Positions 2 to 10,742 of a stretch of 10,777 bases of DNA are shown here, piece by piece. This stretch comes from Candidatus Margulisiibacteriota bacterium. GTDB taxonomy: Bacteria; Margulisbacteria; Termititenacia; Termititenacales; Termititenacaceae. The translations under genes were made by a program, and so were the position numbers. Where the stretch lies: contig JAITIE010000093.1 in the NCBI GenBank assembly GCA_031279615.1, forward strand, positions 1-10,777. The letters run 5' to 3'. Each line of letters starts with the position of its first letter. Positions within the stretch are counted from its first letter, which is position 1. A model generated the notes under the pieces. The model was not told the origin of the DNA. It saw only the letters and a program-made list of their open reading frames with translations, and ran no database searches.

Positions 2-280
2 AGGCCTACTAAAGAACAGTTGCGGAGGATCCGTGAAGCGGCGAAACATCCGATCGTTTTTGACGAGGACTGTCCGGAGCTGACCGATGAGGAATTGGCG
101 GAGTTTGCCGAGCTGGCCAGAGAACGGGATGCGCGCCGCAAAAAATCCATGCTGTCTTTGCGCGTGTCCCCGGAAACCCTGCGGATCGGTCAAACGCTGG
201 GCAAAGGCTGGACCGGCATTTTGGGGCGGCTGTTAGACCTGGCCGTAAAAGACAGCCGTCTCCTGAAAAGAGCGCTTTAG
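2..280 (+). CDS. BrnA-like antitoxin, 5' partial
   Basis: This is the C-terminal 92 residues of a small acidic protein that resembles the BrnA/DUF4415 antitoxins of type II toxin-antitoxin systems. What is seen: the reading frame is open to the left edge. It begins with an RPTKEQLRRIREA segment, then an acidic block (VFDEDCPELTDEELAEF), a basic linker (RDARRKK) and a ribbon-helix-helix-like tail (SMLSLRVSPETL followed by LGKGWTGILGRLLDLAV). BrnA proteins usually start a few residues before this point, so only a short N-terminus is probably missing. A TTG at 20 could in principle be a start, but the sequence before it already fits the family. In this family the N-terminus binds the BrnT toxin and the tail binds the operator. 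The cognate toxin gene would lie just left of the window. The stop codon overlaps the stop of the convergent methyltransferase by four bases (TTAG). Confidence 0.72.
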   Translation, partial: RPTKEQLRRIREAAKHPIVFDEDCPELTDEELAEFAELARERDARRKKSMLSLRVSPETLRIGQTLGKGWTGILGRLLDLAVKDSRLLKRAL

Positions 281-990
281 CGTTTTTTGGCGACGATGAA
301 TAAATAATTGATTTGATCCAAATCCTGGCGTTGGTAAAAAAAACGCATTTCTTTGTTGAGCGATTCGCGGACATTTTTGTCGGAAAAGAAACCTTTGCGG
401 TTTTTTAAATTTTGCTTGATATTTTCGTAATACATTTCCCAGTACTGCCGCGCGACATAAGAGCAGAAAACGATTTCAAAGCCGTTGACTTTGAGCAGGG
501 TGCGGTAACTTTCTTCCGTTTCGAGGTCGAGGTCATGGAGACCGTTCAAAAAAATATCCTGGACTTCGCGGCTCAAGCGTTTGCCGCGCAGGACGAGGTC
601 GGAAATTTCAATATAGCCGTTCTTTTTGAGCAGGCGGCGCGCGCGTTTCAGTCCGGAGTCGCGGCCAATGTAGGAGAGCGCGCCGCCTTCCGCGATAATC
701 ATGTCAAAAGAATTAACGGCAAACTCTTGCTGGTTAAAGTCGCCGACGATAAATTTTATCCGGCTGTTTATTTTTTCGCGCACCGCGGCGGCCTGACCGG
801 CTTTGATGAAGCTTTCCTCTATATCCACGGCGGTGGCCTGACAGCCGAATTTCTTGACGAGATTGAGCGAAGCCGCGCCGTGGCCGCAGGCGATGTCCAA
901 AATTTTGGCGTTTTTATTTAGACCGGCTAATTGTCCGGCCGTCAGCGTGTACTCTTTGCCGCCGGGCGCCAGATAATTTTCGCTGCTCAT
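277..990 (-). CDS. class I SAM-dependent methyltransferase
   Basis: This encodes a 237-residue Rossmann-fold methyltransferase that would transfer a methyl group from S-adenosylmethionine to an unknown acceptor. What is seen: motif I (ILDIACGHGAASLNL, about residues 30-44), the acidic end of strand 2 (AVDIE, 54-58), an acidic VGDFN (82-86) and a motif IV-like segment (FDMIIAEGGALSYIG, 95-109). The C-terminal third, rich in aromatic and basic residues (RQYWEMYYENIKQ), probably contacts the substrate but shows no family signature I recognise. The start is placed at the ATG whose product begins MSSENYLAPGG. A longer reading of the frame runs into xseA and adds sequence unlike the family. There is no Shine-Dalgarno sequence, and a TAAAAT lies seven bases upstream, so the mRNA may be leaderless. 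The gene is divergent from xseA with a 30-base gap. There is no membrane segment, so it is probably cytoplasmic. The fold is secure and the substrate is not. Confidence 0.85.
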   Translation of the reverse strand: MSSENYLAPGGKEYTLTAGQLAGLNKNAKILDIACGHGAASLNLVKKFGCQATAVDIEESFIKAGQAAAVREKINSRIKFIVGDFNQQEFAVNSFDMIIAEGGALSYIGRDSGLKRARRLLKKNGYIEISDLVLRGKRLSREVQDIFLNGLHDLDLETEESYRTLLKVNGFEIVFCSYVARQYWEMYYENIKQNLKNRKGFFSDKNVRESLNKEMRFFYQRQDLDQINYLFIVAKKR

Positions 991-997
991 GGCTAAG

Positions 998-1026
998 ATT
1001 TTAGATGTTATAATTTTGGTATGCAA
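998..1026 (-). promoter_or_regulatory. putative promoter of the methyltransferase gene
   Basis: Read on the minus strand, TTGCAT (complement of 1021-1026) is followed after 17 bases by TAAAAT (998-1003), and seven bases later by the ATG. The -35 matches the consensus only in TTG. If used, transcription would begin at or within one base of the start codon. It overlaps the xseA promoter on the opposite strand. Confidence 0.4.
1006..1014 (+). promoter_or_regulatory. extended -10 promoter of xseA (leaderless)
   Basis: TGTTATAAT is a perfect extended -10 (TGn plus TATAAT). It is followed by six bases (TTTGGT) and the xseA ATG. The usual spacing puts the transcription start on the A of the ATG. 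No Shine-Dalgarno sequence lies between. No recognisable -35 is found at 16-18 bases, as is usual for extended -10 promoters. The same motif with the same spacing precedes xseB. Confidence 0.65.
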
Positions 1027-2169
1027 GCCTTGACCGTTTCCGCGCTGAACGATTATCTCAAAGATTTGGTTGACACAGATATTGTGCTCAACAATCTGAT
1101 CGTCGAGGGCGAGATTTCCAATTTCAAAAAAAGCACAACTGGCGGCCACTGGTATTTCACGCTGAAAGACGCGGCGGCGCAGGTGTCCTGCGTGGTTTTT
1201 GCCAATTTTACGGCGCGGCTCAAATACTCGCCGCGGGACGGCGACAGCGTGCAGGCGCGCGGCAAGCTGGCGGTTTTTAACAAACGCGGCACGTACAGCC
1301 TGCAGATTTATTTTTTGGAATTGGCGGGGCTGGGTGATCTGGCGCGCGCTTTTGCCGAGCTAAAAGATAAGCTGGATATAGAAGGCCTCTTTGCGCCGGA
1401 GCGCAAAAAACCGCTTCCGCCGTATCCGCGGAAAATCGCGGTGCTGGCCGCTCCCGAAGGCGCGGCGATACACGATATTATCACGGTCGCTAAACGCCGC
1501 GATCCAAACATAGAAATTCATCTATACCCGACCTTGGTGCAGGGCGGCGCGGCCACGCAAAACATTATGGAAAATCTTGATTTTGTGCAGGAAGTCGGCG
1601 GTTATGATGTTGTCGTGCTGGCGCGCGGCGGCGGGTCGCTGGAGGATTTGCAGGCTTTTAACACTGAGGCAGTGGCGCGGGCGGTGGCGGCTTGTCAGCT
1701 GCCGACAGTCAGCGCGGTCGGGCACGAAGTGGATTTTTCGATCACAGATTTTGCCGCGGATTTGCGCGCGGCCACGCCGTCGGTGGCGGCGGAATTGATC
1801 GTGCCGGATAAAATGGAGTTGCGGCAGAAAATCGACGCTATGGCGGATTTTTTGCAAAGCGGCTTGGAGCGCTTGCTGACCGACCAATATCAAGACTTGG
1901 CTTATGCCGGGCAGAGGCTGGATGAATTGCTGAAACGGGTTTTAGAGAAGGCTAAGGAAAATTGCCGCTATCTGGCTGACCGGCTGGAAGACCTCAACCC
2001 GTTGCAGATTTTAAAGCGCGGTTTCGCGCTGGTGGAAAAAGACGATCAACCGGCGGCGTTCTCGGAAATAAAAAAAGACGACTTGCTCAATATCCATTTG
2101 ACGGGTGGCCGGGTAGAGGCCAGGGCGCTGAATGTTTACACCGCGGCCAGCGCCCAAATTGACAATTAG
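1021..2169 (+). CDS. xseA: exodeoxyribonuclease VII large subunit
   Basis: This is the catalytic subunit of exonuclease VII, which with XseB degrades single-stranded DNA from both ends into oligonucleotides during repair. What is seen, in 382 residues: an N-terminal OB-fold that binds DNA (about 5-100, with EGEISNFKKSTTGGHWYFTLKD), the catalytic domain (about 125-265) with KKPLPPYPRKIAVLAAPEGAAI, YPTLVQG, ARGGGSLEDLQAFN (201-214) and SAVGHEVDFSITDFAADLRAATP, then a coiled region, and the C-terminal LNPLQILKRGFALV segment. It is shorter than the E. coli protein (456 residues), mainly because the coiled coil between the catalytic domain and the C-terminus is short. The usual LWAFN is LQAFN here. 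The ATG has no ribosome-binding site and sits six bases after a TATAAT. Its last codons contain the -35 of the toxin promoter. XseB is encoded about 600 bases downstream, not next to it. Confidence 0.95.
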   Translation: MQALTVSALNDYLKDLVDTDIVLNNLIVEGEISNFKKSTTGGHWYFTLKDAAAQVSCVVFANFTARLKYSPRDGDSVQARGKLAVFNKRGTYSLQIYFLELAGLGDLARAFAELKDKLDIEGLFAPERKKPLPPYPRKIAVLAAPEGAAIHDIITVAKRRDPNIEIHLYPTLVQGGAATQNIMENLDFVQEVGGYDVVVLARGGGSLEDLQAFNTEAVARAVAACQLPTVSAVGHEVDFSITDFAADLRAATPSVAAELIVPDKMELRQKIDAMADFLQSGLERLLTDQYQDLAYAGQRLDELLKRVLEKAKENCRYLADRLEDLNPLQILKRGFALVEKDDQPAAFSEIKKDDLLNIHLTGGRVEARALNVYTAASAQIDN

Positions 2170-2187
2170 TATACAATGTAGTATACT
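2159..2187 (+). promoter_or_regulatory. consensus sigma-70 promoter of the toxin-antitoxin operon
   Basis: A perfect TTGACA (2159-2164) lies inside the last codons of xseA. It is followed by a 17-base spacer and TATACT (2182-2187), then six bases and the GTG start of the toxin. This is the best complete promoter in the window. Transcription is predicted to begin on the G of the start codon. The spacer and the -10 carry a perfect inverted repeat that a repressor could cover. Confidence 0.75.
2168..2187 (+). promoter_or_regulatory. inverted repeat, likely operator of the toxin-antitoxin operon
   Basis: AGTATAC (2168-2174), six bases, then GTATACT (2181-2187) form a perfect inverted repeat. Because GTATAC is itself palindromic, the site also reads as two direct copies of TAGTATAC starting 12 bases apart (2167 and 2179). 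The right arm is the -10 hexamer, so bound protein would block RNA polymerase. Autorepression by a ribbon-helix-helix antitoxin at such a site is usual for type II systems. That the downstream antitoxin binds here is inference. Confidence 0.6.
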
Positions 2188-2193
2188 CCAGTA

Positions 2194-2475
2194 GTGCAGA
2201 TTATTTGGGATACGGAGAAAAACAAAAAACTGATTGCGGAACGCGGCATTGCTTTTGAGGAATTGGCCGCAATTATTTTGGAGCGTAAATATTGGGCTAT
2301 TCTAAAAAATCCGGCGCGGAAAAGGCAGAAAATAATTGTGCTCCCTTATCATGGTTACACGCATGTTGTGCCGTTTATCCTTGATACGGAGCGCAATATT
2401 GTTTTGAAGACAGCGTTCCCGAGCCGGAAGTATCATAAAATTTACGGAGGAAAAAATGCGCAAAATAAAACTTGA
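2194..2475 (+). CDS. BrnT-family (DUF497) toxin
   Basis: This 93-residue basic protein resembles the BrnT/DUF497 toxins, small RelE-fold ribonucleases that inhibit translation when released from their antitoxin. What is seen: the N-terminal IIWDTEKNKKLIAERGIAFEELAAII, where a WD-x-x-K-N start and a G-I-x-F-E helix are typical of the family. A central strand follows (KIIVLPYHGYTHVVPFIL), and the C-terminal strand LKTAFPSRKYHKIYGG carries the conserved S-R and Y positions. The start is GTG. An in-frame TAG at 2179 rules out a longer product. There is no Shine-Dalgarno sequence, so a leaderless mRNA is likely. Its 3' end overlaps the antitoxin gene by 20 bases, which suggests translational coupling. 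The toxin-first order is usual for brnT-type loci. The toxin-antitoxin stretch is AT-richer than its surroundings: four sampled lines counted by hand give about 39% GC, against about 60% in one sampled line of ispA. This supports acquisition. Confidence 0.8.
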   Translation: MQIIWDTEKNKKLIAERGIAFEELAAIILERKYWAILKNPARKRQKIIVLPYHGYTHVVPFILDTERNIVLKTAFPSRKYHKIYGGKNAQNKT

Positions 2476-2752
2476 CGCTTTTGAGCAGGCTATTGAGGAT
2501 AACGCGGCGGCGTTCGTGCCTGTGTCGTCCAGGGAGCAAGCGAAAATAGAAACTATTATTGCTTCGGCGAACAAGACTAAAAATATTAACATTCGGATTT
2601 CGGAAAACGATTTAACCAGGGTAAAGCAAAAATCGGCAGAGGAAGGTTTGCCGTATCAAACGCTTATTTCCAGTATTATTCATAAATACATCAGCGGCAG
2701 GCTTGTTGAGGAAAATTCTGTGCTAAAGTCTCTGCAATTATTGCGGCAATAA
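2456..2752 (+). CDS. ribbon-helix-helix (CopG-type) antitoxin
   Basis: This 98-residue protein is the probable antitoxin for the upstream BrnT-like toxin. It would neutralise the toxin through its N-terminal half and bind operator DNA through its C-terminal half. What is seen: an acidic and flexible N-terminus (KLDAFEQAIEDNAAAFVPVSS), then a ribbon-helix-helix core with a strand (KNINIRISE, about 42-50), helix 1 (NDLTRVKQKSAEEG) and helix 2 (PYQTLISSIIHKYISGRL). The GLPYQTLISSIIHKY segment matches the CopG-type antitoxins usually found beside DUF497 toxins. The ATG is preceded by GGAGG with a five-base spacer, unlike the leaderless toxin start. It may therefore be translated more strongly than the toxin from the shared mRNA, which would suit an antitoxin. 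Its last codons and stop form a 15-base palindrome in front of the xseB promoter. Confidence 0.85.
   Translation: MRKIKLDAFEQAIEDNAAAFVPVSSREQAKIETIIASANKTKNINIRISENDLTRVKQKSAEEGLPYQTLISSIIHKYISGRLVEENSVLKSLQLLRQ
2738..2752 (+). repeat. 15-base palindrome upstream of the xseB promoter
   Basis: TTATTGC, one G, then GCAATAA form a perfect palindrome ending exactly with the antitoxin stop codon. It overlaps a second palindrome, GCAATTATTGC (2734-2744), so GCAAT, ATTGC and GCAAT alternate with direct copies 12 bases apart. The site lies two bases before the TGTTATAAT of xseB, where a bound protein could act on that promoter. A one-base loop makes an RNA terminator unlikely. Its function is unknown. 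Confidence 0.45.
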
Positions 2753-2754
2753 AA

Positions 2755-2763
2755 TGTTATAAT
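2755..2763 (+). promoter_or_regulatory. extended -10 promoter of xseB (leaderless)
   Basis: TGTTATAAT is followed by CCCGGT and the xseB ATG, the same motif and six-base spacing as at xseA. The predicted transcription start is the A of the ATG. No -35 is evident. It gives xseB and the genes after it transcription independent of the toxin-antitoxin module. Confidence 0.65.
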
Positions 2764-2769
2764 CCCGGT

Positions 2770-2979
2770 ATGACTTTTGAGACCGATTTGAAAAAATTAG
2801 AAAAAATTGTGGAGGACTTGTCCTCCGGCGAAAAAACGCTGGACGCGGCGGTGGAATTGTATAAATCCGGCTTGACGCTGACCAAAAAATGCCACGCTTA
2901 TCTAAAAGTTGTGGAGAAAGAAGTCAAAGCGATTACCAAAAAGAACGGCCAGGTCGAGGAGTCCGATTTTGCCGCCTAA
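2770..2979 (+). CDS. xseB: exodeoxyribonuclease VII small subunit
   Basis: This is the 69-residue helical subunit of exonuclease VII. Several copies bind the coiled-coil region of XseA to form the active single-strand nuclease. What is seen: the family signature from the start (TFETDLKKLEKIVEDLSSGEKTLDAAVELYKSGLTLTKKCHAYL), with the L-E-x-I-V-x-x-L and L-x-x-S/A-V-x-L-Y-x-x-G positions, and a charged C-terminus. The length is normal for the family. The ATG lacks a Shine-Dalgarno sequence and lies six bases after an extended -10. The last 11 bases overlap the proposed TTG start of ispA, as in many bacteria where xseB and ispA are coupled. Its partner gene xseA is separated from it by the toxin-antitoxin pair. 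Confidence 0.93.
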   Translation: MTFETDLKKLEKIVEDLSSGEKTLDAAVELYKSGLTLTKKCHAYLKVVEKEVKAITKKNGQVEESDFAA

Positions 2980-3841
2980 ACTGGCCGCTTATCTGGCGCA
3001 AAAAACAGCCGTCATCGAAAAGGCTTTAGATAACTATCTGGCTTTTCCGCCGGATGTTCCGCAAAAATTAGCCGAAGCCATGCGTTACATTGTCCTCAAC
3101 GGCGGCAAGAGAATACGTCCGGCGCTGATGCTGGCGGCGGCGGAGCTGCTGGGTGTAGATGAGCCGAAAATTTTACCGGCGGCCTGCGCGCTGGAAATGG
3201 TGCATTCTTATTCGCTGGCGCATGACGATTTGCCGTGCATGGACAATGACGATTTGCGGCGCGGCCAGCCGTCCGGCCACAAAAAATTTGGCGAGGCGAT
3301 CGCGCTGCTGGCCGGCGACACTTTGCAGGCGCGCGCTTACGAAATCATCGCCAGAGACTGCCCGCCGGAAAGCGCGCTGGCGCTGATCAAAGCTCTGGGC
3401 GCGGCTTCCGGTATCTGCGGCCTGGCCGGCGGTCAGGCGCTGGATTTGTCCGGCGCGGTAAAGACTTTGCCGGAACTGCAAAAAATGCATGTTTTGAAAA
3501 CCGGCGCGCTGCTCAAGTACGCGGTTACCGCGCCTTTGTGCCTGGCGCAGGCTGACGCGGCGACACGGCAGGCCTTGCGGGATTATGCGGATGCCGTCGG
3601 GCTGGCTTTTCAGATCAAGGACGATATTCTGGACGCGGTCGGCACGGCGGAGACTCTGGGCAAGACCCCCGGCAAAGACGCCGGTGGCGGCAAAGTAACT
3701 TACGTGACTTTGCTGGGGCTGGGACAGGCCGAGGCGCTGCTGGCGGAGGAAACCAACAAAGCCTATGTATCTGCTAAAATATTTGGTGGCGAAAATCTGC
3801 TGCTGGCTATGGCGCGGTACTTGCTGGAAAGGAAAAATTAA
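2969..3841 (+). CDS. ispA: (2E,6E)-farnesyl diphosphate synthase (prenyl transferase)
   Basis: This 290-residue prenyl transferase condenses isopentenyl diphosphate with allylic diphosphates, giving farnesyl (possibly geranylgeranyl) diphosphate for quinones, undecaprenyl phosphate and carotenoids. What is seen: GGKRIRP (45-51), the first Asp-rich motif DDLPCMDNDDLRRG (from 86) with the two-residue insertion of bacterial type II enzymes, GGQALDL (154-160), the second Asp-rich motif KDDILD (217-222) and KTPGKDAGGGKVTYVTLLGL. Tyr at position -5 from the first motif matches E. coli and Bacillus IspA, which favours a C15 product. The start is TTG, chosen because GAGGAG lies seven bases before it and the product then has the family's length. 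It overlaps xseB by 11 bases. The longer frame from 2909 would extend far into xseB. The next gene starts immediately after the stop. Confidence 0.92.
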   Translation: MPPKLAAYLAQKTAVIEKALDNYLAFPPDVPQKLAEAMRYIVLNGGKRIRPALMLAAAELLGVDEPKILPAACALEMVHSYSLAHDDLPCMDNDDLRRGQPSGHKKFGEAIALLAGDTLQARAYEIIARDCPPESALALIKALGAASGICGLAGGQALDLSGAVKTLPELQKMHVLKTGALLKYAVTAPLCLAQADAATRQALRDYADAVGLAFQIKDDILDAVGTAETLGKTPGKDAGGGKVTYVTLLGLGQAEALLAEETNKAYVSAKIFGGENLLLAMARYLLERKN

Positions 3842-4327
3842 ATGCTGGCCAGAATTTGGACAGAATTGGTAAATATGTTTTTCGGTTTGACGCTCAATGA
3901 GCACGTGCGGATCGCCGTGCTGGCGATGCTGACCGCGCAGATTTTAAAAATACTTTTTTACTATCTGCGCAACCGCCGGTTTAGTTTTAAAGTTTTTGTG
4001 CAGCCGGGTGGCATGCCTAGCTCGCATACGGCGATGGTGCTGTCGCTGGCGGCCTCAATTGGCTTTTCCGACGGCTGGGGTTCCAAAACTTTTGCCATCG
4101 CGCTGATTTTTAGCATGGTCGTGATGTACGACGCCGCGGGTGTGCGTCGCGCTGCCGGCAAGCAGGCGGCAATCCTGAATATGCTCATGCAAGACCTTTT
4201 CACCAAAAAGAAAATCAACGAGCTGCGCCTGAAAGAACTGCTCGGGCACACGCCGCTGGAGGTTTTTTTCGGCGGCCTGCTTGGCATTGTTTTAGCGTTT
4301 GCCTATCATTTGATTTATAATATTTGA
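3842..4327 (+). CDS. divergent PAP2 family membrane protein (DUF212/YuiD-like)
   Basis: This 161-residue integral membrane protein belongs to the divergent branch of the PAP2 acid phosphatases. What is seen: a hydrophobic segment at about 23-42, PGGMPSSHTA (55-64, the PSGH-like motif), two hydrophobic segments at about 65-100, a polar DAAGVRRAAGKQA (97-109), LGHTPLEVFFGG (134-145, with the second conserved His), and a last hydrophobic segment to the C-terminus. The length is normal for the family. The ATG follows the ispA stop directly and has AAAGGA eight bases upstream. dxs begins two bases after its stop codon. The substrate of this branch is not established. The place between ispA and dxs suggests a prenyl diphosphate or undecaprenyl carrier, but this is inference. 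The end of the gene also contains the TATAAT of the putative dxs promoter. Confidence 0.85.
   Translation: MLARIWTELVNMFFGLTLNEHVRIAVLAMLTAQILKILFYYLRNRRFSFKVFVQPGGMPSSHTAMVLSLAASIGFSDGWGSKTFAIALIFSMVVMYDAAGVRRAAGKQAAILNMLMQDLFTKKKINELRLKELLGHTPLEVFFGGLLGIVLAFAYHLIYNI
4316..4321 (+). promoter_or_regulatory. putative -10 element of dxs
   Basis: TATAAT lies in the last codons of the PAP2 gene, seven bases before the dxs ATG. dxs has no Shine-Dalgarno sequence. No -35 match is seen. The ATG is also only two bases past the previous stop, so translational reinitiation is an alternative to leaderless expression. Confidence 0.45.
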
Positions 4328-4328
4328 C

Positions 4329-6188
4329 ATGTTAGAGCGTTATTCTGACCCGCGCGATTTGAAAAAATATTCGCTGCAGGAGTTAAAACAACTGGCCGAG
4401 GATATCCGGCGGAAAATCCTGCAAATCGTTTCCGTCAACGGCGGGCATCCCGCGTCCAGTCTGGGCGCGGTGGAGTTAACGCTCGCTCTGCACGCCGCGC
4501 TGGACACCCCGCAGGACAAGCTCATTTGGGACGTCGGCCATCAGGCTTACGCGCATAAAATCTTGACCGGACGTCTGGCTAAAATAGACACTTTGCGGCG
4601 GCACAACGGCATTTCCGGTTTTCCGAAACGCGAGGAATCCATTTACGACACGCTGACGGTCGGCCACGCTTCGACTTCGGTATCCGCGGCTGTCGGCATT
4701 GCCAGAGCGCGCGATATTCAAAAAGAAAATTTTGCCGTGGTGTCGGTGGTTGGCGACGGGTCATTTTCCGGCGGTTTGATTTTTGAAGCGCTGAATAACG
4801 CGCAAGGACTGCGGAATTTTGTGATCGTTTTAAACGACAACGGCATGTCCATCGGCAAGCCGGTCGGCACGCTGGCTAAAATGATCACCAAACTGCGGCT
4901 GTCCAATATTTACCGCGGCTTAAAAAAACACACCGAGTTTATGCTGGGGCTTTTGCCGGCGATTGGCCGGCCGTTGCGTCTGGCCGTGGATAAGCTGATC
5001 AACCGCACCGGCGGCATTATTATCCGCGAGCTGGCCAAGCGGCAAAAAGCCGGTTTTTTTCAGGATCTGGGCTTTACTTATTTTGGCCCGCTGGACGGGC
5101 ACAATATCTCACTGCTGACCGTCGCTTTGAAGTACGCCAAAGATTTTGACCGGCCGGTGCTGCTGCATGTGCTGACCAAGAAAGGCAAAGGCTACGCGCC
5201 GGCGGAAAAAGAGCCGTCGCGTTTTCACGGCGTGTCCGGTTTTGTTTTGGAAACGGGGGATTTGGGGCGGGCGGAGCGTTCTTACACGAAAGTTTTTGGC
5301 GAGGAATTATTAAAACAGGCCGCCGCGGATCAAAAAATCTGCGCGGTCACGGCGGCTATGACGGACGGCGCCGGTTTGAGCGCTTTTGCGGAAAAATATC
5401 CTGAGCGGTTTTTTGACGTGGGCATTGCCGAGGAGCACGCCGTGACTTTTGCCGCCGGGCTGGCCGCGGACGGACTGAAACCGGTCGTGGCTATTTACTC
5501 CACATTTTTGCAGCGCGCCTATGATCAGATCATTCACGACGCGGCTTTGCAAAAATTGCCGTTGTTTTTAGCGGTCGACCGCGCCGGTCTGGTCGGGCCG
5601 GACGGACCGACGCATCACGGCGTTTTTGATCTGGCTTTTTTGCGTACCGTGCCGGGTTTGGTCCTGGCCGCGCCCAAAGACGCCAATGAACTGAAAGATT
5701 TAATCAAGCTGGGTTTGTCCTGTAATAAATTGTTCGCGCTGCGCTATCCGCGCGGCAAGGCGTTGTTTGGGGACGCGGAGCGGGACGCGCGGAACGTGGA
5801 ATTGGGCAAAGGTGAAATTGTTTACGGCCGGCCGGATGCGGAAATAACGGTTTGGGCAATCGGTTCTATGGTCGCTCCGTCCGTCAAGGCCGCTAAGCAG
5901 ACCGGCAAAAGTATTTGCGTGGTCAACGCGCGTTTTGCCGCGCCGCTGGACAAAGAGTTGCTGCGGGAGACGGTTAAAAAGGCTAAAAAATTATTTACGG
6001 TGGAAGAAAATTCGATACGCGGCGGTTTCGGCGCGGCGGTGGCGGAAGCCCTGACCGAGTTAAAAATTTCTCTGCCGCAAATTATTTGCGGCGTGCCGGA
6101 TAATTTTGTCGGACAAGGCTCTATTGAGGAACTTTATCAAGACTGCGGCCTCGGCGCCGAGGATTTGGCCAGGCTTTTCGATGCTTAA
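4329..6188 (+). CDS. dxs: 1-deoxy-D-xylulose-5-phosphate synthase
   Basis: This 619-residue thiamine diphosphate enzyme condenses pyruvate with glyceraldehyde 3-phosphate to 1-deoxy-D-xylulose 5-phosphate. That is the first step of the MEP isoprenoid pathway and also feeds thiamine and pyridoxal synthesis. What is seen, in order: NGGHPASSLGAVELT (37-51), WDVGHQAYAHKILTGR (67-82), GFPKREESIYDTLTVGHASTS, the thiamine diphosphate motif GDGSFSGG to LNDNGMS (142 to about 174), FGPLDGHN, the transketolase-like acid GIAEEHAVTFAAG with the catalytic Glu near 369, AVDRAGLVGPDGPTHHG (416-431) and a C-terminal VGQGSIEEL. The length equals E. coli Dxs (620). The usual FGAGHSSTS is LTVGHASTS here, a mild variant. 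The start has no ribosome-binding site. The last eight bases overlap folC. It sits with ispA, so entry and elongation steps of the isoprenoid route are linked. Confidence 0.95.
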   Translation: MLERYSDPRDLKKYSLQELKQLAEDIRRKILQIVSVNGGHPASSLGAVELTLALHAALDTPQDKLIWDVGHQAYAHKILTGRLAKIDTLRRHNGISGFPKREESIYDTLTVGHASTSVSAAVGIARARDIQKENFAVVSVVGDGSFSGGLIFEALNNAQGLRNFVIVLNDNGMSIGKPVGTLAKMITKLRLSNIYRGLKKHTEFMLGLLPAIGRPLRLAVDKLINRTGGIIIRELAKRQKAGFFQDLGFTYFGPLDGHNISLLTVALKYAKDFDRPVLLHVLTKKGKGYAPAEKEPSRFHGVSGFVLETGDLGRAERSYTKVFGEELLKQAAADQKICAVTAAMTDGAGLSAFAEKYPERFFDVGIAEEHAVTFAAGLAADGLKPVVAIYSTFLQRAYDQIIHDAALQKLPLFLAVDRAGLVGPDGPTHHGVFDLAFLRTVPGLVLAAPKDANELKDLIKLGLSCNKLFALRYPRGKALFGDAERDARNVELGKGEIVYGRPDAEITVWAIGSMVAPSVKAAKQTGKSICVVNARFAAPLDKELLRETVKKAKKLFTVEENSIRGGFGAAVAEALTELKISLPQIICGVPDNFVGQGSIEELYQDCGLGAEDLARLFDA

Positions 6189-7359
6189 ATATTTTTGGGC
6201 TGTCCGGAAACTGGAGCGCTATGCGCGTTTGGCCGGCGTCAAACCCGGGCTGGCGCGGATCACGAAATTATTGGACTTGCTGGGCAGACCACAGCGCAAT
6301 ATCAAGGCTGTGCATATCGCTGGCACGAACGGCAAAGGCTCCACGGCGTTGCTGGCCGCCAATGCCCTGCGTGAGTGCGGTTACAAAGCGGGAACCTACC
6401 TTTCGCCGCATTTGGTCGAGTATACAGAACGCTTTTTAATTAACGGACAGGAAATTTCCCGCCGTGATTTTGCCAGGATATTTTGGCGGGTCGCTCAAGC
6501 GGCGCGCCGGGTCAAAGGCATTACGGAATTTGAGATTTTAACGGCGATGGCTTTTGTTTTTTTTCAGGAGCAAAAAGTTGATCTGGCAGTTTTGGAAACC
6601 GGCTTAGGCGGCAAATATGACGCGACCAATGTCTGCCGGTCGATTTTGACGATTATCACGCCGGTCGATTACGACCATGAAGCTGTGCTGGGAACGAGCC
6701 TGAAAAAAATCGCCGCGGAAAAAGCCGGCATTATTAAAAAAGGTGTGCCGCTGGCCACTGTCCGGCAAAAACCGGAAGTCATGGCGGTAATAAAAAAACG
6801 CGCGGCTCAATGCGGCTGCCAGGTAAAGACATTGCAAGCGGCGTCTTTATCCAGCGCAGACAATAAACAACTTGTTCTGACGGCTTTGCGTTTTTTGAAA
6901 TTACCGCCGGAGTTAATCAAGCAGGGCCTGCAAAAAACTATCTTTCCCGGACGCCAGCAAAAATGGCTGAACGCTCCGCCATTTTATCTCGATGTGGCGC
7001 ACAATCCGCAGGCCTTTGCCAGTTTACTGCGGACTGTCCGGCCAAAAATTTTGGTTTTTGGTCTGATGCGCCGCAAGAATTTGAAAAAAATTTTAGCGGT
7101 TTTGCAGGCGCGAATCGTTTTATTGATTGCCGTTACTTTACCCTCGTCACGCCGTGAAGAAGCTTTCACGGCCGCCGAGTTAGCCGCGGCCGCGCGCGCC
7201 TGCGGTATTCCAGCGGTGATTAGCCCCGACGTTCCGTCCGCCTGCCGTCTGGCCGCGCGCGAGGCCTTGCGGCGGCGGGTTACCGCCGCGGCCGCCGGCT
7301 CCTTTCATCTGGTGGGCGCGATTTTTAAGAGATACAAACTGCCGCGCGCTATTTGCTGA
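6181..7359 (+). CDS. folC: folylpolyglutamate/dihydrofolate synthase, shortened
   Basis: This 392-residue Mur-ligase-like enzyme joins glutamate to dihydropteroate or folates using ATP, making and retaining cytoplasmic folate. What is seen: LLGRPQ, the P-loop AGTNGKGST (47-55), the folate-contacting TYLSPHLVEYTERFLINGQEIS, FEILTAMAF, LETGLGGKYDATN (138-150), ITPVDYDH, KIAAEKAGIIKKGVPL, FPGRQQKW (255-262), LDVAHNPQAF and the C-terminal GSFHLVGAIF. It is shorter than E. coli FolC (422). The gap falls between residues 210 and 230, where the usual L-P-L-x-G-x-x-Q-x-x-N strand and loop are replaced by a short SLSSADNKQ. The ATG overlaps the end of dxs by eight bases and has only a weak AGG upstream, so translational coupling is likely. 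Its 3' end overlaps the convergent lipoprotein gene by 11 bases. Some folC homologues act only on one of the two substrates, and this cannot be decided here. Confidence 0.9.
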   Translation: MLKYFWAVRKLERYARLAGVKPGLARITKLLDLLGRPQRNIKAVHIAGTNGKGSTALLAANALRECGYKAGTYLSPHLVEYTERFLINGQEISRRDFARIFWRVAQAARRVKGITEFEILTAMAFVFFQEQKVDLAVLETGLGGKYDATNVCRSILTIITPVDYDHEAVLGTSLKKIAAEKAGIIKKGVPLATVRQKPEVMAVIKKRAAQCGCQVKTLQAASLSSADNKQLVLTALRFLKLPPELIKQGLQKTIFPGRQQKWLNAPPFYLDVAHNPQAFASLLRTVRPKILVFGLMRRKNLKKILAVLQARIVLLIAVTLPSSRREEAFTAAELAAAARACGIPAVISPDVPSACRLAAREALRRRVTAAAAGSFHLVGAIFKRYKLPRAIC

Positions 7360-7924
7360 GGATCTGTCCGGTTTCCGCGTCGAGCACCACGGCGTGTTTT
7401 TTGTTGCTGCCGTGAAAAACCACCTGCCATTTTGACGTTTTTTGCCGCGTGTCGTGAGGCGGCCCGATCAGCGAGATTACCCGGGTGGTGGCGCCGGATT
7501 CCGCGATAAAAGCGCGGGCGGCTTCCGTGGCTTTGTACAGCGCGGTCGGCGTGTCGATTTTTAGATTGACCACCGGATTGAGCGGCGGGAGCACAGTTTC
7601 TTTTTGCGCGATGTAGCCGGAGTCGTAAGTGTAGATGATTGATTTGCCGGAGCCCGGCGCATAAAAAAGATAGGCCCATTTATTGCTGTTGCCGCCGCCG
7701 TCGATTTCGACTTCGGAGATAGCGAAAAGATAGGCGTCACGCCGCCAGGCTTTGGCGCGCTGGTCTATGTCCGGCAAATATTGCAGCGCGGACACGCCGT
7801 AGTTAAATTCTGTCACTTCACCGAAACGCAAAGCCCCGCGAATAGCGGTCAAGGCCTTGCAGCCGCTCAAAAACAGTACACAGCTTAAAACGAGCGCCGC
7901 GCCCCAAATTGATTTTTTCAGCAT
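7349..7924 (-). CDS. putative lipoprotein with tandem PepSY-like halves
   Basis: This encodes a 191-residue predicted lipoprotein of unknown function. What is seen: a signal peptide with a KK start, a hydrophobic core (about 6-20) and the lipobox LSGC, with Cys22 as the acylation site. The mature part looks like two related halves. Each has an Ala-rich helix, then a K-W-x-Y/V-F strand pair and a hairpin with GSxK: NKWAYLFYAPGSGKS (81-95) and SKWQVVFHGSNKKH (165-178). The ending VVLDAETGQILSK is PepSY-like. PepSY-type domains are often thought to modulate proteases, but no target is visible. The gene lies 34 bases downstream of ileS on the same strand and could be read from it or from its own start: TAACAT six bases and TATAGT eleven bases before the ATG are -10 candidates. 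There is no Shine-Dalgarno sequence. Export and lipidation are likely. The domain call is tentative. Confidence 0.7.
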   Translation of the reverse strand: MLKKSIWGAALVLSCVLFLSGCKALTAIRGALRFGEVTEFNYGVSALQYLPDIDQRAKAWRRDAYLFAISEVEIDGGGNSNKWAYLFYAPGSGKSIIYTYDSGYIAQKETVLPPLNPVVNLKIDTPTALYKATEAARAFIAESGATTRVISLIGPPHDTRQKTSKWQVVFHGSNKKHAVVLDAETGQILSK

Positions 7925-7930
7925 GAAATA

Positions 7931-7941
7931 ATGTTACTATA
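7931..7941 (-). promoter_or_regulatory. possible -10 elements of the lipoprotein gene
   Basis: On the minus strand, TATAGT (complement of 7936-7941) ends 11 bases before the ATG and TAACAT (complement of 7931-7936) ends six bases before it. Either could be a -10; the second matches the six-base spacing of other starts here. No -35 is apparent, so cotranscription with ileS remains equally likely. Confidence 0.25.
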
Positions 7942-7958
7942 TTTTGCGCGGCTTGTAA

Positions 7959-10727
7959 TTACCTCGCGGCGTCCACCACCGCGGCACAGCGCGGACAAAT
8001 TTGTTCGGCGTTCAGATTTTCAAAAAACCGCCAGCAGCGCTCGCATTTTTCACCGGCGGCTTTGCGAACTTCCGCTTTCAATTCACCGGTTTCGATAGTC
8101 ACTTTGGAAACTATCAAAAAATTTTCCAGCTCCACGGCTGTAATATCTTTGACCAAATCGGCCGGCGCGCTCAGAACCACCGCCGCTTCAGTTGACGAGG
8201 TTATAATTTTTTCCGCGCGCTTGGCCTCAAGGGCTTTGTATACTTCGTTTTTGATTTTTAAAACGCGCTCGTATTTTTCTTCCAGAGTTTTATTGATGAG
8301 TTCCGGCTGGACCTGCGGCAGATCAGTCAGGGCCGCGAATTCCGCCTTTTCCTCCGGCACGACTTGCTTAATGTATTTGTAAATGTCCTCGCAAGTGTAG
8401 GCCAAAATCGGTGTTAATAGTTTGACCAGCGTGACCAAAATTATTTTCAACGCTTCCTGACAGCTGCGGCGCTCCGGCGCGTCCGGCGCGCTGCAGTAAA
8501 GATTGTCTTTTTGCAGATCGAGGTACACAGCCGACAGATCGTTGGCGCAAAACTCATGCGCGCGGTGGCAGATCCGGTGAAAATCAAAATTTTGATAAGC
8601 GGTGTTGATCTCGCCGACCAGGCCCTGCAGCCGCGAGATTATCCATTGGTCGACCGGCAGCAGCGCGGCGCCGGGTTGATAGTCGTATAAATTGGACAAT
8701 AAAAACCGCCAGGTGTTGCGGATCTTGCTGTAATATTCCTGCACTTGTTTCAGGATCGAATCCGAAACCGCCAGATCGTTTTTGAAATCCACCGACGCCG
8801 TCCAAAACCGCACGACATCCGCGCCAAAAGTATTGATGGTTTTTTGAATGTCGATGGTGTTGCCCAGCGATTTGGATAATTTGCGGCCTTTATCATCGAC
8901 GGTGAAGCCGTGGGTCAGCACGGCCTTGTACGGCGGCTCGCCGGCGCAGCCGATCGCCAGTAGCAGCGAAGAATGAAACCAGCCGCGGTGCTGGTCAGAG
9001 CCTTCGAGATACAGGTCCGCCGGCCAGCGCAGCTCCGGCCGCTGGCGCAGTACCGCCGCCTGCGAGGCGCCGGACTCGAACCAAACGTCGAGGATGTCCG
9101 TTTCCTGGCAGAATTTTTGGCCGCCGCACTGACAGCGCAGTCCGTCCGGCAAAATCTCCGCCGCGTTTTTAGTAAACCAGACATTCGAGCCGTCTTTTTG
9201 CACCCGCTGAATCACCGCGTCAAAAAATTCCGGCGCAAACTGCGCCGCGCCGCAATCCGCGCAGTAAAAAATCGGGAGCGGTATGCCCCAGGAGCGCTGG
9301 CGGGAAATGCACCAGTCCGGCCGCTTCTCGATCATGGTGTAAATGCGGTTTTGTCCCCAATCCGGCAGCCACTGGACTTTGTTTTTGATCGCGGCGAGAG
9401 CCTGAGCGCGGATCGCGCCGTGTTTGCCGGTTTTGTCCATAGCCACAAACCACTGCGGTGTGGCGCGGAAAATGACCGGATTTTTGCAACGCCAGCAATG
9501 CGGATAAGAATGTGTGATATTTTTTACCTTGAGCAATGTGCCGAGTTCACGCAGATGCTCGATGATTTTAGCGTTGGCCTCGGTTACTTTCAGCCCCGCA
9601 AATTGTCCGGCCTCTCGGGTCAAAACGCCTTTTTCATCGACCGGCATCAAGACTGGCAAACCGTATTTCAGACCGATGGCGTGGTCTTCCTGTCCGTGTC
9701 CGGGCGCGATATGCACACAGCCGGTGCCGTCCTCGGCCGTGACGTAATCCGCGCAGACCAGCGGCGCTTCGCGGTCTAGATACGGGTGTTTGCTGACCGA
9801 GCCAGTCAGCTCTTTGCCGGTCAGCGTGGCGATGATTTTGTATTCCAGCCCCAGCTCTTGAAAAACTCTGGCGGCCAGCGGCTCGCCCACCACATAGCGG
9901 TCACTGAGCGGAGTCGAAGTGACCGTAGAAGCGCCTGACGAAACCGCCGCGCAGACCACGTAATTCATTTCCGGATTGACCGCCACGGCGACATTGGCCG
10001 GCAGGGTCCACGGCGTGGTTGTCCAGACTATCAAGCTGGCGTCTTTTATTTTCTCGTCCGAGACTTTGAGCAACGGGAATTTCATGTAAATAGACGGCGA
10101 TTTGTGGTCGGCGTACTCGATCTCCGCCTCGGCCAGCGCGGTCTGACATTCAGGACACCAGTGTATCGGTTTATTGCCTTTGTAAATGTAACCGTTGACA
10201 GCCAGCTCTTTGAAGGCGCGCAAAACCTCGGCCTCGTATTCCGGCTGCAGGGTCAGATAAGGATTTGCCCAGTCGGCCAGCACGCCCAGCCGCTGAAACT
10301 GCCCGCGCTGTTTTTCCACGTAACCCAGCGCGTACTCCTGACAGCCCGCGCGAAACTCCGCTTTGGCAGGGAGCGGATGCTTGGCTTTTTTCAAATCTTT
10401 CAATAATTGAGTTTCGATCGGCAGGCCGTGGCAGTCCCAGCCCGGGATGTACGGCGCGGCGCGGCCAGTCATGGCCATATAGCGATTGACAATGTCTTTG
10501 AGCGTTTTATTCAGCGCGTGCCCTAGATGAATATCGCCGTTGGGATAAGGCGGCCCGTCGTGCAGGACATATTTTTCCCGCGTATTTTTTTTTAATAACT
10601 TGGCGTAAAGATTTTGTTCGGTCATTTCCCGCAAAATTTCTGGCTCGCGCGTGGCCAAACCGGCGCGGATCGGAAAATCAGTTTTGGGCAGATTCAGCGT
10701 ATTTTTGAATTTTTTCGCTTCGGGCAT
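7959..10727 (-). CDS. ileS: isoleucyl-tRNA synthetase
   Basis: This 922-residue class I synthetase attaches isoleucine to tRNA-Ile and edits mischarged valine. What is seen: GPPYPNGDIHLGHAL (58-72, HIGH motif as HLGH), GWDCHGLPIE (97-106), the CP1 editing domain with WTTTPWTLPAN (235-245) and APGHGQEDHAIGLKYGLP (341-358), Cys pairs WCPEC, HCWRC, YCADC and RCQCGG, IEKRPDWCISRQRSWGIPLP, LYLEGSDQHRGWFHSS, the KMSKS loop as KLSKS (616-620), an anticodon-binding helical domain and a C-terminal zinc finger CERC-CPRC (895-914). This is the bacterial zinc-tailed type. The start chosen is the ATG (MPEAKKFKN) six bases after an extended -10. A TTG nine codons upstream would add residues MCLVCLNTA and lies before that promoter. 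About 14 residues near 262-275 of CP1 look inserted and coincide with a palindromic DNA repeat. An A9 run near codons 46-48 is a possible slippage site. Confidence 0.96.
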   Translation of the reverse strand: MPEAKKFKNTLNLPKTDFPIRAGLATREPEILREMTEQNLYAKLLKKNTREKYVLHDGPPYPNGDIHLGHALNKTLKDIVNRYMAMTGRAAPYIPGWDCHGLPIETQLLKDLKKAKHPLPAKAEFRAGCQEYALGYVEKQRGQFQRLGVLADWANPYLTLQPEYEAEVLRAFKELAVNGYIYKGNKPIHWCPECQTALAEAEIEYADHKSPSIYMKFPLLKVSDEKIKDASLIVWTTTPWTLPANVAVAVNPEMNYVVCAAVSSGASTVTSTPLSDRYVVGEPLAARVFQELGLEYKIIATLTGKELTGSVSKHPYLDREAPLVCADYVTAEDGTGCVHIAPGHGQEDHAIGLKYGLPVLMPVDEKGVLTREAGQFAGLKVTEANAKIIEHLRELGTLLKVKNITHSYPHCWRCKNPVIFRATPQWFVAMDKTGKHGAIRAQALAAIKNKVQWLPDWGQNRIYTMIEKRPDWCISRQRSWGIPLPIFYCADCGAAQFAPEFFDAVIQRVQKDGSNVWFTKNAAEILPDGLRCQCGGQKFCQETDILDVWFESGASQAAVLRQRPELRWPADLYLEGSDQHRGWFHSSLLLAIGCAGEPPYKAVLTHGFTVDDKGRKLSKSLGNTIDIQKTINTFGADVVRFWTASVDFKNDLAVSDSILKQVQEYYSKIRNTWRFLLSNLYDYQPGAALLPVDQWIISRLQGLVGEINTAYQNFDFHRICHRAHEFCANDLSAVYLDLQKDNLYCSAPDAPERRSCQEALKIILVTLVKLLTPILAYTCEDIYKYIKQVVPEEKAEFAALTDLPQVQPELINKTLEEKYERVLKIKNEVYKALEAKRAEKIITSSTEAAVVLSAPADLVKDITAVELENFLIVSKVTIETGELKAEVRKAAGEKCERCWRFFENLNAEQICPRCAAVVDAAR
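9898..9925. repeat. palindromic repeat inside ileS
   Basis: CGGTCACT (9898-9905) and AGTGACCG (9918-9925) form a perfect eight-base inverted repeat around a 12-base centre, GAGCGGAGTCGA. From memory, CACTTCGACnnnGCTCAGTG-type palindromes recur as dispersed repeats in many bacterial genomes, and this matches that pattern. It lies in frame in the CP1 domain and encodes TVTSTPLSDR, low-complexity residues absent from the matching part of E. coli IleS. No second copy was noticed in this window. Confidence 0.6.
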
Positions 10728-10733
10728 GGCCGT

Positions 10734-10742
10734 ATTTAAACA
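10734..10742 (-). promoter_or_regulatory. extended -10 promoter of ileS (leaderless)
   Basis: On the minus strand TGTTTAAAT (TGn plus TTAAAT) is followed by ACGGCC and the ileS ATG, the same six-base spacing as xseA and xseB. The predicted transcription start is the A of the ATG. That would leave no 5' leader and so no room for a T-box riboswitch, which controls ileS in many Gram-positive bacteria. Confidence 0.5.

Follow-up and report, generated by a model that had tools for sequence, protein, structure and literature searches.

In the draft genome analysed here (G000; 1.02 Mb in 165 contigs, 80% complete), the genes that carry a -10-like box close to the start codon are very probably leaderless, with a sigma-70-type promoter abutting the start codon; we infer both the transcription start and the mode of translation from the sequence. 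Such a promoter would consist of a weak -35 element, often a TG at -15/-14, and TATAAT at -12 to -7 relative to the start codon. RNA polymerase would begin the RNA at the A of the ATG or at the base preceding it, and the mRNA would have no 5' leader, so that ribosomes would have to bind directly to an AUG at the very 5' end, unaided by Shine-Dalgarno pairing. For operon-internal genes, initiation would instead depend on Shine-Dalgarno sites or on coupling. The lineage probably mixes both modes of initiation, the detectably leaderless genes making up roughly a fifth of the lead genes as judged from their upstream DNA.

The window (the whole stretch of 10,777 nucleotides) is contig 68 of this draft, and its features are summarized in Table 1, where d is the number of bases separating the hexamer from the start codon. 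The genes were named by Pfam; the lipoprotein had no family match. All seven boxes of the original prediction were present at the spacing claimed for them, and AGGA, GGAG or GAGG at -20 to -4, which we scored as the Shine-Dalgarno motif throughout, was absent from all seven boxed genes. The same motif was found before the antitoxin, ispA and PAP2 genes, consistent with the claim that these internal genes have Shine-Dalgarno sites, and folC had neither this motif nor TANNNT upstream. The ileS box was correctly placed at d = 6, but its hexamer is TTAAAT and does not match the TANNNT pattern. The toxin gene has a full promoter, TTGACA-17-TATACT-6-GTG. Among 11 window starts set by hand, TANNNT occurred four times at d = 6 and twice at d = 7, and also four times at d = 14, so that the window by itself is weak proof.

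Table 1. Genes, putative promoter elements and Shine-Dalgarno sites in the window
Feature	Position	Strand	Basis
Class I methyltransferase gene (start codon 988-990)	277..990	-	Pfam Methyltransf_25, 1.3e-17
Methyltransferase -10 hexamer TAAAAT, d = 7 from ATG	998..1003	-	Sequence; recurs in relatives
xseA extended -10 TGTTATAAT, d = 6 from ATG	1006..1014	+	Sequence; recurs in relatives
xseA, exonuclease VII large subunit	1021..2169	+	Pfam Exonuc_VII_L, 5.4e-79
Toxin promoter -35 TTGACA	2159..2164	+	Sequence
Toxin -10 TATACT, d = 6 from GTG	2182..2187	+	Sequence; TAAACT at equal spacing in G005
BrnT-like toxin	2194..2475	+	Pfam BrnT_toxin, 1.1e-4, 22.9 bits (under the curated cut-off of 34.5)
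Antitoxin Shine-Dalgarno GGAGG	2446..2450	+	Sequence
CopG-like antitoxin	2456..2752	+	Pfam CopG_antitoxin, 4.6e-6, 27.7 bits (slightly under the curated cut-off of 28)
xseB extended -10 TGTTATAAT, d = 6 from ATG	2755..2763	+	Sequence
xseB, exonuclease VII small subunit	2770..2979	+	Pfam Exonuc_VII_S, 2.4e-14
ispA Shine-Dalgarno GAGGAG (TTG start at 2969)	2956..2961	+	Sequence
PAP2-family gene Shine-Dalgarno AAAGGA (start at 3842)	3828..3833	+	Sequence
TATAAT, d = 7 from dxs ATG; doubtful promoter	4316..4321	+	PAP2 C-terminal codons
Lipoprotein -10 TAACAT, d = 6 from ATG (start 7922-7924)	7931..7936	-	Sequence
ileS box TGTTTAAAT, hexamer TTAAAT, d = 6 from ATG (start 10725-10727)	10734..10742	-	Sequence

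Some further features of the window should be noted. A perfect inverted repeat, AGTATAC-N6-GTATACT, spans the toxin -10 (2168..2187, forward strand) and is partly kept in G005 and G004; it is probably an operator for autoregulation by the antitoxin. The TTG start of ispA and its GAGGAG lie inside the end of xseB (2956-2971), and the copies seen in G005, G004 and G001 retain both. Positions 1-119 recur unchanged at one end of a second contig (C134:1-119), which probably reflects an overlap in the assembly graph at a repeat; they include a fragment of a BrnA-like antitoxin gene.

For the genome-wide counts, we used the window and 80 further contigs of G000 (538,191 bases; 81 of the 165 contigs). 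Gene starts came from a home-made gene finder with a 3-periodic Markov model, adopted because an earlier codon-usage finder had called a false gene over the methyltransferase; the simple finder overlooked the toxin and antitoxin genes of the window. The finder gave 437 starts preceded by at least 60 bases of sequence. We classed 182 of them as 'lead' (either divergent or separated by more than 40 bp from the preceding same-strand gene) and 190 as 'internal' (at most 20 bp from it), and the remaining 65 were left out of the test. TANNNT was present at d = 6 before 31 of the 182 lead genes; the background, taken as the mean over d = 14-43, was 5.77 (maximum 10; binomial P = 3e-14). Of the 190 internal genes, 4 had it at d = 6 (mean 2.33, P = 0.2). 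The sharp peak that the original prediction had anticipated was thus found, the number of lead genes being only 4 one base nearer the start codon (d = 5) and 12 one base further away (d = 7). When TATAAT with at most one mismatch was counted at d = 6, there were 26 lead genes (mean 3.13). In an earlier 394-kb sample, where 42 lead genes had unambiguous starts, the box stood at d = 6 before 13 of them. The 31 boxed lead genes start with ATG in 29 cases and GTG in two. A TG at -15/-14, which was no criterion of selection, occurred in 15 of these 31 genes versus 4 of the 151 other lead genes, and positions -35 to -30 of the boxed genes lean to T, T, G, C, A and A, a weak -35. The peak at d = 6 in lead genes, together with the unselected TG, suggests that the boxes belong to sigma-70-type promoters whose +1 falls on the start codon.

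The GC content of G000 is 50%, and the DNA upstream of starts is AT-rich (A 0.33, T 0.29). Such DNA could yield TANNNT frequently, by chance or through errors of gene finding, and within the window the pattern does occur at several distances. The peak is, however, specific to its position, with the neighbouring distances as a control. Counts made without a gene model over the whole draft gave 33 TATAATN6ATG versus 13 TATAATN11ATG, and 16 genomes outside the phylum, when summed, showed no enrichment (314 versus 361), so that the chance of such an origin is close to negligible. When first ATGs were taken without a gene model, the peak was weak, with 6.2% of 292 at d = 6. As 21 of the 31 boxes begin with TAT, in-frame stops are not a likely source of the TAN at -12.

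A PWM made of the TG, one base and the hexamer, and trained on boxed genes of the same set, gave an excess at d = 5-8 of 33.5-35.6 of the 182 lead genes at thresholds 2-6, 27.9 at threshold 7 and 20.3 at threshold 8, that is, about 34 genes (19%). The box at d = 6 or 7 was counted in 43 lead genes and the Shine-Dalgarno motif in 56 (31%; 10 in a control stretch further upstream), while 83 had neither; among internal genes, 98 of 190 had the motif (28 in the control stretch). No lead gene had both, although this exclusion is partly forced because the same bases serve both. The expectation of a genome-wide rule is not supported by these figures, the excess being about 19% of lead genes.

The hexamer occupies the place of a Shine-Dalgarno site, and boxed lead genes lack the Shine-Dalgarno motif, as would be expected if it were a signal for translation (an AT-rich ribosome site or an unstructured stretch) and no promoter at all. 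Among genes without a Shine-Dalgarno motif, however, the box at d = 6 or 7 was found in 43 of 126 lead genes versus 8 of 92 internal ones (Fisher P = 8.5e-6), which favours a promoter and does not fit a non-canonical AT-rich ribosome site. The accompanying TG of an extended -10, and the lack of the hexamer before xseB where that gene directly follows xseA (see below), also speak against a translation signal, which we consider very improbable.

We also compared the boxes with those of orthologues in related genomes. The xseA box, TGNTATAAT at d = 6, was present in 7 of 7 copies (G000, G005, two of G004, G001, G006 and G007), and its spacing is constant in G005, G004 and G006 despite unrelated DNA further upstream and altered first codons. 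TAAAAT or TAGAAT stands at d = 7 in all six methyltransferase copies compared. Five of the seven ileS copies have TTAAAT at d = 6, the exceptions being G006 and G007. The lipoprotein, proposed as a possible seventh case, keeps its box at d = 6 in 4 of 6 copies, with other spacing in the same two genomes; both boxes drift in the sister genus. Of the six genes for which one arrangement had been claimed, the methyltransferase, xseA, toxin, xseB and ileS boxes recur before the orthologues of relatives, and dxs is doubtful. The PAP2 gene has AAAGGA, AAAGGG or AGAGGA in the seven copies compared. In an automatic test of eight boxed lead genes, a box at d = 6 or 7 was kept in 16 of 19 gene-genome pairs, and the three misses were all xseB. 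Of these 19 pairs, 14 are of window genes; the other five were all kept, one of them only 50% identical and perhaps not orthologous, and two of the 19 sit in one spacer identical between both genomes. For unboxed lead genes, such a box was found in 0 of 10 pairs, the mean identity being 83% for boxed and unboxed genes.

The three xseB misses reflect a change of start signal. TGNTATAAT stands at d = 6 in the three xseB copies with the antitoxin gene just upstream (G000, G005 and one G004 copy), and in four copies overlapping the end of xseA a GGGAG or AGGAG site replaces the box. In G000 and G005 the BrnT/CopG-like cassette (2170-2752 in the window) separates xseA from xseB; one G004 copy has a cassette in this place in which the toxin match is shortened and extra DNA is present. 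No cassette was found between the two genes in G001, G006, G007 or the other G004 copy. The G004 draft has two xseA copies (L172 and L173; 84% and 81% identity to the window), by reason of either a mixed bin or a duplication.

The constant d = 7 before the methyltransferase and the drift of the ileS and lipoprotein boxes would also suit ordinary -10 boxes whose transcription starts are slightly off, giving leaders of 1-5 bases translated like leaderless mRNA. A secondary excess of TANNNT in G000 lead genes, 14 of 182 at d = 9 and 14 of 182 at d = 11, points the same way, and may reflect leaders of 3-5 bases or misplaced starts. Against this, the sharpness of the peak at d = 6 relative to d = 5 and d = 7 makes very short leaders an unlikely explanation, and we favour a start on the codon itself.

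We do not accept dxs as a leaderless example. The gene lies 1 bp after PAP2, and hence is no lead gene; the TATAAT encodes the C terminus of PAP2, and its spacing shifts from 7 in G000 and G005 to 8 in G004, G001 and G003. No TATAAT precedes dxs in G006 or G007, and dxs is probably a false example.

The short divergent spacers are the least ordinary part of the finding. A spacer of 30 bp parts the back-to-back start codons of the methyltransferase and xseA, which are 31 positions apart, and the two hexamers (998-1003 and 1009-1014) are separated by 5 bp without overlap. With both -10 boxes inside this spacer, transcription from them leaves no room for an ordinary leader on either gene. In G005 and both G004 copies, the starts of the two genes are about 0.6-1.2 kb apart and each gene retains its box; the 30-bp spacing recurs in G007. 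Start codons 0-70 bp apart were found in 14 of 47 divergent pairs in G000, 4 of 21 in G005, 8 of 20 in G011, 9 of 19 in G035, 4 of 17 in G017, 0 of 18 in G020 and 1 of 33 in gammaproteobacterial loci. With a grouping chosen after seeing the data and leaving out G017, this gives 35 of 107 (G000, G005, G011 and G035) versus 1 of 51 (G020 and the gammaproteobacteria; Fisher P = 3.3e-6). In G000 and G005 together, the ends of short spacers had a box at d = 6 or 7 in 22 of 36 cases and the Shine-Dalgarno motif in 5 of 36, versus 16 and 33 of 96 for the ends of longer spacers (Fisher P = 1.9e-6 for the box). As spacer length is independent of the motif, the short spacers provide a second line of support. 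One 29-bp divergent spacer, identical in G000 (L122:3593-3621) and G005 (L179:7280-7308), has a box at d = 6 in each direction.

We tentatively suggest that leaderless starts in this phylum might serve as a packing device. By dispensing with leaders, a divergent gene pair could fit two mutually exclusive promoters, placed back to back, into a single spacer of about 20-65 bp. This compact bidirectional arrangement would be distinct from shared -10 promoters, and the mode of initiation would be set by the position of the gene and could flip, as it seems to do at xseB depending on whether the toxin-antitoxin cassette stands between it and xseA. In the passages of Warman and Grainger on bidirectional promoters cited here (PMC12825309), two polymerases should likewise not fit together, a point that for the window we infer. 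Their promoters share one -10 and have start sites most often 18 (also 10 and 23) bp apart; the window, unlike these, has two separate back-to-back boxes, and the methyltransferase/xseA pair, with its non-overlapping hexamers and its start codons 31 positions apart, is no shared -10 of that kind.

Exact patterns were also counted across the phylum. TATAATN6ATG outnumbered TATAATN11ATG 376 to 150 in eight genomes of the same family and 3478 to 1916 in the 74 phylum genomes listed. By family, the N6/N11 ratio was 2.5 in f1 (8 genomes) and 3.2 in f5 (9); nine of 30 families reached 2 or more, and four (f4, f24, f22 and f10) had 1.1 or less. The enrichment had binomial P < 0.05, uncorrected for multiple tests, in 19 of the 30. 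Among the 16 outside genomes, which were reached via named loci of other groups, the one from a Treponema locus had 53 versus 33. When xseA loci of the phylum were compared as DNA with the 80 named loci, identity in the 20 longest matches was only about 65-73%. In 200-kb samples, lead genes with the box at d = 6 numbered 8 of 84 in G011 (mean 2.20), 7 of 69 in G035 (1.47), 5 of 58 in G017 (2.13) and 5 of 82 in G020 (4.13), and the gammaproteobacterial control of 15 named loci (305 kb) gave 7 of 174 (3.57, P = 0.07). In G005 the box preceded 10 of 79 lead genes overall and 2 of 25 with unambiguous starts (P = 0.26). The box is confined to lead genes in G000; besides the slight one in the gammaproteobacterial lead genes, an unexpected small excess at d = 6 was seen in internal genes of G005 (3 of 50, P = 0.02), G017 (4 of 46, P = 0.008) and G035 (4 of 115, P = 0.01).

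Leaderless starts are a known but minority mode among bacterial genes, and leaderless genes are known in Deinococcus, Actinobacteria and other groups. In G000 the features that mark such genes were found together: a -10 at 6-7 bases above background, no Shine-Dalgarno motif, and conservation in relatives. As far as the cited passages go, Deinococcus-Thermus has TANNNT 6-7 bp before the ORF, in nearly one-third of D. radiodurans genes, with a second class of genes that has GGAG-type sites and with conservation across species, as here (PMC12340547). The present case differs in its share, about a fifth of lead genes, and in its consensus, TATAAT, often with TG. Zheng et al. (2011) reported leaderless genes in 207 of 953 bacterial genomes from many groups (PMC3160421); in the portion cited, their TA-led genes likewise have a TA-like signal about 10 bp before the start, with TAtaaT in mid-GC groups, comparable to the 50% GC here, and, in several low-GC genomes, a TG preceding the box. 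GeneMarkS-2, as quoted in PMC9581028, predicts leaderless transcription in 21.6% of bacterial species, with leaderless and Shine-Dalgarno starts mixed in one genome as in G000. The kind is therefore already known. Within the leaderless literature on candidate phyla, Margulisbacteria, metagenome-assembled genomes and divergent genes, we found none tied to this lineage, which is weak evidence of absence.

The present results add an uncultured lineage and, as far as pattern counts indicate, many families of the same phylum to the groups with predicted leaderless starts. In such genomes, a gene caller that is tuned to Shine-Dalgarno sites may put starts in the wrong place. The spread among families, clear in f1 and f5 and absent in f10, together with the switch at xseB, would make the gain and loss of leaderless initiation testable within one phylum.
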